Assembly: GCA_035647615.1 (NCBI GenBank)
Contig: DASRND010000007.1
Span: 62,001-126,000 of the forward strand
Direction of reading: 5' to 3'
Length of the DNA: 64,000 nucleotides
Origin: Bacteroidales bacterium
Lineage (GTDB): Bacteria > Bacteroidota > Bacteroidia > Bacteroidales > 4484-276
Shown: piece after piece, positions 7,811 through 64,000 of the stretch
Numbering within the stretch: position 1 is the stretch's first letter
Layout of the letters: every line of letters starts with the position of its first letter
Translations under genes and position numbers: made by a program
The notes under the pieces: model-generated
The model's database searches: none
Seen by the model: only the letters and a program-made list of their open reading frames with translations
Told to the model about the DNA's origin: nothing

Positions 7811-8938
7811 CTAATGTTCCTGAATTTCATTGTATTCATCCTTACCATCGGTAAGCCATTCCAACGAAATCCGGACAAACGTATTTTCCTGATAATTATC
7901 TTTTTCAAAGAATAAACCAATATCGCCATTGGAAAGAACAGTCAGGGAAGAATAAGCAGAACCTCTTTCATAAATGGTTTTGCCTACCGTCCAGGTCTTG
8001 CCTTCGTCGTAACTAATTCTCAGAGTCATATTTACGCGATCGTCGGTGGATTTTGCATTTGCAAATAGCAGCCTGTTTTTGTCGGCACCATCATCGGTGC
8101 TGGTGTAGCGGATGATGCTTGCATTACAGCCCGGATCGATGAGCGCCGAATCAGCTGCAGAGTACCAGGTAGCACCCTGGTCTGTTGATGTATGAACGTA
8201 TCGGGTTCCTGAACCATTTACGCGGCTATTGATCATCCAGATGCCGTCGGCCAATTCGACCATTTTGGATTCGTCACCCGGCACAATTGACTTGCTGAAG
8301 AGCTGCCAGCTTTCACCATGGTCGTCACTGCCAAAAAGATGAAGCCCGTTTTCGAGATTCACAAGCGTGTGCAGCAGCTTCCCCGAACGGGTTTGGATGC
8401 CTCTGCCGGAAGTGATAAATTTAAAATCGTTGTGCCATTCGGGTTTAGAGATTTGTGAAGTAATATCAACAGACTCGCTCCAGGTTTTTCCGTTATCACG
8501 GCTTTGGGTAACCCGAAAATAATAGACGTCTTTTTCATTTTCTACATCCATGTAATTAAAAAACAAGAAAATGGTTCCCGTAACACGATCCACAATCATC
8601 GAAGGGTCGGAGGCAGACTGGCCTGCGGGATAATCGACAATGGTTTCGATGTCGGACCAGGACGCTCCGTTGTCGGCGCTGCGCCGCATCACAATGTTTA
8701 TGTCATCATTCCATTTCAGGTCGCCACAGGAAGGAACGCGCTCATCAATAGCCACCACCACATCTCCGTTGGGAGCCGTAACTATGGCCGGTATCCGGTA
8801 ACAGGCCACGCCGGGCTTTGCGTTTGAATCGAATAAATTTACAAATTTCAGGCTATCCTGCTGAGCTATTAGTTCGGCACTTTTTGATAAACTAAAAATG
8901 AAACCCAGGCAGATTAACACAAGGAATTTGTTTTTCAT
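7811..8938 (-). CDS. secreted exo-alpha-sialidase (GH33)
   Basis: A 375-residue sialidase. A signal peptide (about 1-25) is followed by the YRIPAI motif that carries the first arginine of the catalytic triad. At least five Asp-box repeats of the S/T-x-D-x-G-x-T-W type mark a six-bladed propeller (SADNGASWS, SRDNGKTWS, SDDHGESWQ, STDQGATWY, SYDEGKTWT). It would remove terminal sialic acid from glycans in the periplasm or outside the cell. No T9SS tail or carbohydrate-binding module is present. No sialic-acid uptake or catabolic gene lies nearby, so it may feed other organisms or expose underlying sugars for the alpha-galactosidase at 12221. Confidence 0.88.
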   Translation of the reverse strand: MKNKFLVLICLGFIFSLSKSAELIAQQDSLKFVNLFDSNAKPGVACYRIPAIVTAPNGDVVVAIDERVPSCGDLKWNDDINIVMRRSADNGASWSDIETIVDYPAGQSASDPSMIVDRVTGTIFLFFNYMDVENEKDVYYFRVTQSRDNGKTWSESVDITSQISKPEWHNDFKFITSGRGIQTRSGKLLHTLVNLENGLHLFGSDDHGESWQLFSKSIVPGDESKMVELADGIWMINSRVNGSGTRYVHTSTDQGATWYSAADSALIDPGCNASIIRYTSTDDGADKNRLLFANAKSTDDRVNMTLRISYDEGKTWTVGKTIYERGSAYSSLTVLSNGDIGLFFEKDNYQENTFVRISLEWLTDGKDEYNEIQEH

Positions 8939-9029
8939 CTGAAATGTATTTTTAAAAAACTATTTCCTTTCTCATCCCACCCGCCCTCTTTCTTGAGCAG
9001 GTTAAGGGTAGGATAAAAAAGTGAAGTTG

Positions 9030-62140: not shown

Positions 62141-62215
62141 GGGACGTTAGCTCAGTTGGTTTAGAGCGCTTGCTTGACAGGCAAGAGGTCACTGGTTCGA
62201 TTCCAGTACGCCCCA
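62141..62215 (+). tRNA. tRNA-Val (GAC)
   Basis: Cloverleaf: acceptor GGGACGT with ACGCCCC, D stem GCTC/GAGC, anticodon stem CTTGC/GCAAG with loop TTGACAG (anticodon GAC), variable loop AGGTC, T stem ACTGG/CCAGT with loop TTCGATT, discriminator A. The CCA end is not encoded. The acceptor has one A-C mismatch at the fourth pair. Confidence 0.95.
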
Positions 62216-62223
62216 CAATGAAG

Positions 62224-62945: not shown

Positions 62946-64000
62946 TTACTTTTCAAAATCCCGCAAAATTGTAACCTCACAAGCTTTGCACTGCCGTTTT
63001 TCCTGATAGTATTCTGCAATGTCGTACCAGCCACCAGTCTTTTGAAAGATATCAAGTCCTCGGCCCAAAATGATCTTCCAACCGTTATTAGGTTCAATAG
63101 ACCGGTCGTGTGCATTTTCGTCAAATTCGTAGGTGAAGAGAATTCCTAGAGGTTCAAGAGACTCTGTTATGTTCCTGAATGCTTCCTTTACATTTTCAAT
63201 GTAATCTTCACTATTGTATGTGACCAAGTGGAATTTGACCTCCTCTACTTCTCCTTTCTGTTCAGCAACTAGCTTCGTTAACTCCATCAGGTTCCTAAGC
63301 TGATAAGGCAACCTGACGTAAGGATCAACAACTTTAATCTCTGTGGCACCGATCAGATAATCGCCAAATAGGTTTTTATATGAAATCCCCGTTTGATTGT
63401 CGCGGATTATCCGATGGCAAGCCTCTAAATTATTAAAGTTTATTTCTTTCTTTTCTTCCTTTTGCTCTTCTACGGCTTTCTTCTTACCGAAAAGCTCTTC
63501 TATTTCAAGAGTTTCTATGTCAACCTTTTTACCGCTGGATTTAATAACGTAACTAAAATCCACTTCCTCGAAGGTCTCATCCATTTTGATAAGCTGCTGC
63601 TTCACTCGTTTGCGGTTCTCAATAGCCAGATCCAGCAATTCTTTGGCTTCATCTTCATTGTATTCATTATTCGGATAAATGACTTTCAACAAACCAGAAA
63701 ATGTTTTTGAAATCGAATTTTTATCCCTTGTTGTGATAGAATCTGATAGCTGAAAGTACTTACTATACGCATGCATGTGATCCTCTTTGCGCAGCTCCTT
63801 TAGGACCTCAGCCAGATAGTCCACTATGAACCCATAGCTATCTGTGAACATTTCATTCCGTAGCTTTTGCACCTCCCACCCTGGTATGTATGCATGGATT
63901 CTATCGAGAAATGCTGCATCATTATAATCCTGTGGAAGTGCTTCAAATAAATTGGAGTGTTTGAGCATGTAGGGAACGGAGTGATCTGTATTGCCAACAA
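62946..64000 (-). CDS. brxL: BREX BrxL-type AAA+ protein with MITD1-C-like tail, partial
   Basis: The gene runs off the right edge; 351 codons are visible. The first Met in frame (63968) is internal, since the frame stays open to the edge and encodes VGNTDHSVPY before it, part of the conserved BrxL VGN motif. Then come LFEALP, AFLDRIHAYIPGWEVQKLR, the sensor/lid part of BrxL-type AAA+ proteins, TTRDKNSISKTFSGLLKV and VDFSYV. Instead of a Lon-type protease domain the C-terminus (from about SYKNLFGDYL to DFEK) has ATEIKVVDPYVRLPYQLRN and GWKIILGRGLDIFQK, matching the MITD1 C-terminal (MIT_C) domain. Phage defence by BREX is likely; no other BREX gene is visible. Confidence 0.8.
   Translation of the reverse strand, partial: VGNTDHSVPYMLKHSNLFEALPQDYNDAAFLDRIHAYIPGWEVQKLRNEMFTDSYGFIVDYLAEVLKELRKEDHMHAYSKYFQLSDSITTRDKNSISKTFSGLLKVIYPNNEYNEDEAKELLDLAIENRKRVKQQLIKMDETFEEVDFSYVIKSSGKKVDIETLEIEELFGKKKAVEEQKEEKKEINFNNLEACHRIIRDNQTGISYKNLFGDYLIGATEIKVVDPYVRLPYQLRNLMELTKLVAEQKGEVEEVKFHLVTYNSEDYIENVKEAFRNITESLEPLGILFTYEFDENAHDRSIEPNNGWKIILGRGLDIFQKTGGWYDIAEYYQEKRQCKACEVTILRDFEK

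Follow-up and report, generated by a model that had tools for sequence, protein, structure and literature searches.

The brxL gene at the end of the window (the whole stretch of 64,000 nucleotides analysed, positions 62001-126000 of contig C7, G000:C7) belongs to a complete type I BREX operon, with all six genes together, and its product ends in a MIT_C domain, the phospholipase D (PLD)-like domain of human MITD1. BrxL proteins with a MIT_C tail are common and already published as an architecture. What appears to be new, as far as we searched, is that human MITD1 has the site of this tail intact and is closely akin to it, a relationship which is apparently unreported; in the literature searched we found no link of MITD1 with BREX, or of BrxL with MIT. 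The near-invariant residues of the tail favour a phosphodiesterase or phosphate-binding site, probably for DNA cleavage, over mere membrane docking, since an active or phosphate site would call for a polar set conserved in this way.

A complete type I BREX operon on an island

Within the window, brxL is an ORF of 350 aa on the minus strand (62946-63998) which runs open at the window edge (Table 1). Extending the contig past the window gave the complete BrxL, of 665 aa, with an ATG start and no internal stops. Both domains on which membership in BrxL rests, BrxL_N (PF20442; aa 11-141, 1.3e-48) and the AAA+ domain BrxL_ATPase (PF13337; aa 152-464, 1.9e-131), were found by Pfam in the full protein, confirming the BrxL AAA+ end and linker that the first-pass annotation had read from the partial ORF. 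The NCBIfam model TIGR02688 also assigns the protein to BrxL (598 bits against a cut-off of 329). TIGR02653, the model for long-form BrxL, is matched just at positions 2-473 of 675 and scores 611 bits, below its cut-off of 628, which weakens the label of canonical long BrxL and leaves that of BrxL itself unaffected; the NCBIfam matches stop at aa 472. The N-terminal part and AAA+ core are like those of Acinetobacter BrxL (8emc/8emh; 1.5e-146 over aa 2-468).

Table 1 Features of the tRNA-Val(GAC) and brxL region in window coordinates.
Feature	Coordinates	Strand	Evidence and remarks
tRNA-Val(GAC)	62141..62216	+	ARAGORN, Rfam; probable island integration site
tRNA-Val(GAC) 3' end, 48 bp	62170..62217	+	Perfect repeat 33.4 kb downstream; probable attL
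brxL, C-terminal 350 of 665 residues	62946..64000	-	5' part past the window, contig C7 up to 126943
MIT_C / MITD1-type PLD-like domain, aa 519-661	62961..63389	-	PF16565, AF2 + Foldseek
G627-R-G-L-D631, second conserved tail motif	63051..63065	-	R628 59/60, G629 60/60, D631 60/60 BrxL tails
H612-x-R614, HxK-like motif of PLD fold	63102..63110	-	H 59/60, R 60/60 BrxL tails; also in human MITD1
Linker, aa 465-518	63390..63551	-	pLDDT 48-64 over most of the linker, low model confidence
BrxL AAA+ (MCM-like) ATPase domain, C-terminal part	63552..64000	-	PF13337, alignment to 8emc

Profile matches for each gene give the order brxA-brxB-brxC-pglX-pglZ-brxL on one strand, with a type A PglZ and a BREX-1 PglX. 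The neighbours beyond position 64000 are thus pglZ, pglX, brxC, brxB and brxA, as a BREX locus should have, and not genes unrelated to BREX. Between brxC and pglX lies a gene for a 121-aa four-helix protein of the S23/23S-rRNA-IVP type (L002:8524-9033, gene 8594-8959 minus), bordered by the 7-bp repeats TTGGTGA / CCAATCC; proteins of this type give 8 matches in the genome. Repeats of the same kind, 7 bp and 21 bp long and in frame, are carried by pglX (L002:5588-5732, NGDWRLENGDRRMENGDRRMENGDWG...), where they make up an insert of low complexity within the methyltransferase's C-terminal half.

The operon sits on a 33.4-kb island, probably integrated at tRNA-Val(GAC), a location that is likewise new as far as we searched. 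The distal copy of the 48-bp perfect direct repeat lies at C7 157611-157658 (= L003:12811-12858) and is adjoined by a tyrosine integrase (L003:11434-12687(-)), which has an arm-binding, a SAM-like and a catalytic domain; the G+C content of the island is 40%, against 47% in the preceding sequence. Toprim-like and DUF927-like genes stand next to the integrase. MIT_C was absent from 3 genomes of the same genus and 8 of the same family, some of them incomplete, as is expected of a mobile locus.

MIT_C replaces the Lon-like domain as the tail of BrxL

The MITD1-type C-terminal domain claimed from the partial ORF is borne out by Pfam, in which MIT_C (PF16565) covers aa 519-661 with an E-value of 4.9e-42 and 143.6 bits against a cut-off of 25, over 142/142 profile positions. 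The tail motifs ATEIKVVDPYVR and GWKIILGRGLDIFQK fall inside this domain and align to human MITD1 (4a5z), the sole significant match by sequence search (4.5e-22). An AlphaFold2 model built from the window tail and 28 relatives has a pLDDT >90 over most of the domain, and its top Foldseek match in the PDB is again MITD1 4a5z (E 1.1e-16, TM 0.90 by target, rmsd 1.7 A), so the structure prediction agrees with the MITD1 assignment. Behind it come PLD catalytic domains, those of human PLD1 and PLD2, of PLD3 and of bacterial enzymes. The E-value and the pLDDT of the model rule out a chance match or pseudo-domain. The full-length AlphaFold2 model of a homologue was left unused (AAA+ core pLDDT ~30, shallow alignment).

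Ordinary BrxL (8EMC/8EMH) is a DNA-binding double ring, paired tail to tail by its Lon-like C-terminal domain (PMC10164562). Acinetobacter BrxL has such a Lon/RadA-like, catalytically dead, ring-pairing tail, whereas the tail in the window is MIT_C. A hidden or diverged Lon-like domain is ruled out by hhalign and Foldseek: profile-profile comparison of Lon-like with MIT_C BrxL tails gave a probability of 0.1% (hhalign; positive control 100%), and since the two show no similarity we regard MIT_C as a replacement and not as a diverged Lon-like domain. As in the BrxL-HKD variant, a PLD-fold domain stands where the Lon-like tail would be. A Pfam scan of the 665 aa found no Lon protease Ser-Lys domain and no MIT domain, the latter being expected of a MITD1 / ESCRT-III cofactor. 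That a Lon protease was missing, as the first-pass annotation put it, therefore holds only for the Lon-like domain itself, because in canonical BrxL this domain already has neither catalytic residues nor protease motif (PMC10164562; PMC12839542), and no proteolytic function was lost by the tail swap.

MIT_C tails are widespread among BrxL proteins

Tabulating BrxL homologues in 297 Bacteroidota genomes gave 17 with a MIT_C tail, 10 with a Lon-like tail and a few that are tailless. A scan of GTDB found at least 528 encoded relatives, and the best 80 of these are BrxL-sized except for a few. The tail also occurs on plasmids of Proteobacteria and Actinobacteria, with 25 records in all; MIT_C was not found in deposited phage genomes. 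The tail is already included in the BrxL model PDLC02508 of PADLOC 2023.

PMC12839542 (NAR 2026 gkag035) describes an HKD-endoDNase with an HRD motif that replaces the Lon-like domain in 1030/2913 type-1 BrxL proteins, credits its first report to the Menshen paper (NAR 2025 gkaf357) and gives its DNA endonuclease activity as a prediction. We infer that this published tail is the MIT_C tail, as position and motif agree and our sample holds no tail of another kind in such abundance; the Lon-like replacement, the H-x-R motif and the type I operon match here as well. MITD1 is unnamed in the main text of that paper. Together, the Bacteroidota survey and the literature rule out a rare architecture, and the distinctiveness which had been claimed for this protein does not stand.

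The tail carries a near-invariant site

We aligned 60 BrxL tails from Bacteroidota, Proteobacteria and Actinobacteria, and also compared a second, larger set. Ten residues are present in 60/60 tails (D540, R544, Q548, T575, R614, G621, W622, G629, D631 and R650), and H612 and R628 in 59/60 each. Phospholipase D enzymes carry an HxK(x)4D motif, and we take H612-x-R614 followed by D/N619 to stand at the expected place of this motif, with R replacing K. Position 619, 7 residues after H612, is N in the window protein; among the 60 tails it is D in 43 and N in 17. With the PLD superfamily (PLD1, PLD2, PLD3 and Streptomyces PLD) the tail has the fold and the position of the HxK-like motif in common, but it differs in having one motif per chain and R for K, at 6-16% identity.

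From the PLD fold, the near-invariant H-x-R with D/R/Q/R/D/R, the published reading as a probable DNase and the fact that the replaced domain was no protease, it follows that the earlier proposal of docking instead of proteolysis is not a consequence of the tail swap. Because the conserved set resembles an active or phosphate-binding site, the membrane docking of MITD1 cannot automatically be transferred to BrxL. The observation behind the first-pass annotation was thus confirmed, and its interpretation partly supported.

Kinship with human MITD1

The C-terminal PLD-like domain of human MITD1 (4a5z/2ymb) has all the key residues of the BrxL tail, at a TM of 0.90. Outside this domain the proteins differ: MITD1 has an N-terminal MIT domain binding ESCRT-III and no AAA+ core, and BrxL has the AAA+ core. 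Identity to human MITD1 is 32-33% for the window tail and up to 49% for other BrxL tails. The closest form one clade, whose tails are 46-49% identical to MITD1 (one with E 1.9e-38 vs 4a5z) and which comprises a Thioflavicoccus plasmid, several contigs of the viral collection and one Bacteroidota genome. In an unrooted tree with one eukaryotic sequence, which is blind to polarity, human MITD1 joins this clade with a support of 98/93. When distant MIT_C-like outgroups were added, one of them on a very long branch, the grouping received 90/57 and the alternative was unrejected (AU p 0.078).

The PLD-fold domain of MITD1 binds membranes (PMC6015221), an activity reported solely for the eukaryotic protein. 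It is possible, although we hold it tentatively, that the membrane domain of MITD1, a eukaryotic ESCRT-III factor of cytokinesis, and the BrxL tail are one and the same domain, its site intact in both, which passed between prokaryotes and eukaryotes. In that case, either MITD1 would derive from a BrxL-type defence tail and be an overlooked phosphodiesterase, or the BrxL tail would bind lipid or phosphate and not be a DNase.

Evolution of the tail and type-4-like exceptions

Few changes are needed to map MIT_C onto the tree of BrxL cores. That the tail was swapped more than once, independently, within type I is unsupported; a single MIT_C clade among these cores is unrejected (AU p 0.58). We dismissed tail loss for one tailless BrxL within the MIT_C clade (G213, L138), since its ORF reaches the contig end and it is no evidence of such loss.

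Two loci, L174 (G140:C10) and L181 (G345:C269), combine a type-4-like core with MIT_C, their whole BrxL proteins being 66% identical. Both encode DUF4007, a small AAA-like protein, a BrxC/SspC-like protein and a PglZ-like protein along with BrxL with MIT_C, and PADLOC scored an SspC-like BrxC for L174. In one of these type-4-like loci, an Eco57I-type methylase gene takes the position immediately upstream that PAPS reductase would hold in type 4; in L174 and L177 an Eco57I-type methylase gene lies upstream and an AIPR gene downstream. These cores look like a second, separate acquisition of MIT_C, their exact placement being unsure owing to long branches. PMC12839542 calls HKD tails type-1 specific and type-4 BrxL devoid of a C-terminal extension; unlike that type-4 BrxL, the BrxL of our two loci has a tail, which makes L174 and L181 either exceptions or a hybrid type. 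MIT_C at the end of BrxL in such type-4-like hybrid loci appears to be new as far as we searched.

MIT_C in other proteins

MIT_C also ends or begins proteins of other kinds, in fusions which seem to be new within the literature searched. A 947-aa protein from a Candidatus Thiodictyon syntrophicum plasmid joins a Dynamin_N GTPase to a C-terminal MIT_C (L156:4631-7474), and an AbiEii nucleotidyltransferase is fused to MIT_C in Kaistella treverensis (L096:9362-10474), its tail being nearest to that of Empedobacter BrxL. An IF2_N protein ends in MIT_C (L157), and in L018 and L175 MIT_C stands ahead of Sel1 repeats; a Sel1-MIT_C fusion lies near an Mrr-type nuclease gene. This variety suggests that MIT_C is a portable module, several times found in defence-like settings.

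A 201-aa ORF precedes and overlaps the start of the AbiEii-MIT_C gene. On a Rhodococcus opacus plasmid (L161:1-2968), genes for AbiEi and AbiEii are directly upstream of brxL-MIT_C, so that AbiE and BrxL are neighbours there, and AbiEii and MIT_C are fused elsewhere. A Hymenobacter plasmid (L155:4180-7435) has a brxL-MIT_C broken into short ORFs beside a short PglZ ORF, which looks like a decaying BREX locus. In a distant family whose members measure 250-316 aa, the C-terminal MIT_C-like domain keeps HDR...GRGLD-like motifs (L183, L184, L021).

Possible functions of the tail

We give even chances to the reading of the tail as a predicted DNA-cutting effector end of BrxL. Its nearest folds are MITD1 and then the catalytic domains of PLD1, PLD2, PLD3 and bacterial PLDs, its polar set is near-invariant across the BrxL tails of three phyla, and the AbiEii and Sel1 fusions, the latter near the Mrr-type nuclease gene, place it in other defence-like proteins. 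The independent published HKD-endoDNase reading, with its HRD motif in 1030/2913 proteins (PMC12839542), agrees with DNA cutting, as does the fact that the swapped-out Lon-like tail is what pairs the rings in the structure solved (PMC10164562). However, the PglZ of type I BREX is itself reported to be a nuclease (PMC12839542), which would make a second one unneeded. The catalytic lysine is replaced by R and the expected D is N here and in 17/60 tails, and the nearest solved folds beyond MITD1 are mostly lipases. Moreover, the site residues are intact in MITD1, described as a membrane-binding factor, so their conservation may reflect ligand binding and not DNA cutting.

PLD-fold domains often dimerise, and a non-catalytic tail, a dimerisation module inheriting the pairing of rings while PglZ and other subunits restrict, would account for the K-to-R and D-to-N changes. 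The canonical tail itself is non-catalytic and pairs rings (PMC10164562), and PglZ would supply the nuclease (PMC12839542). We nevertheless consider this unlikely, as the near-invariance of H, R, D, Q and R in deeply diverged tails and in unrelated fusions goes beyond the needs of a dimer surface. Docking of BrxL to membrane phospholipids in the manner of MITD1, for example where phage DNA enters, would fit the membrane binding of the nearest solved relative through its PLD-fold domain (PMC6015221), the sharing of every conserved residue with human MITD1 and the one bacterial MIT_C on a dynamin-like GTPase, a membrane-acting family; it is quite improbable given that BrxL has no ESCRT or MIT domain in Pfam, that the AbiEii, IF2_N and Sel1 fusions give no membrane hint and that DNA is the target of BrxL (PMC10164562). 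Cleavage or binding of another phosphodiester ligand (a nucleotide signal, RNA or phospholipid) instead of phage DNA would suit a PLD fold and site common to proteins with very different partners, with lipid-acting PLDs as well as the exonuclease PLD3 among the nearest catalytic folds, but seems more improbable still, as DNA is the substrate to expect of a domain fused to an AAA+ ring that encircles DNA.

If the tail does cut DNA, BrxL in its HKD/PLD-tailed form would act as a ring on unmarked DNA whose paired tails make composite phosphodiesterase centres, a scheme that we would as readily believe as doubt. Going by 8EMC/8EMH, the core would assemble as a ring on DNA, and going by BREX biology, this ring would load on DNA without the PglX methyl mark. 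The MIT_C tail, with one H-x-R half-site per chain, would occupy the ring-pairing place of the Lon-like domain, so that in paired tails two half-sites could form phosphodiesterase centres, by which foreign DNA, once threaded, may be nicked or cut. BREX would keep its recognition part as it is, the effector end alone being swapped.

The architecture is an ordinary one, with the tail on roughly one in three type I BrxL proteins, and H612/R614 offer a handle for distinguishing a tail that cuts DNA from one that only assembles rings in the arrest of phages by BREX. Through the kinship with MITD1, a defence effector is linked to a human cell-division protein, which implies either a possible enzyme activity of MITD1 or a re-examination of the DNase reading of BrxL.
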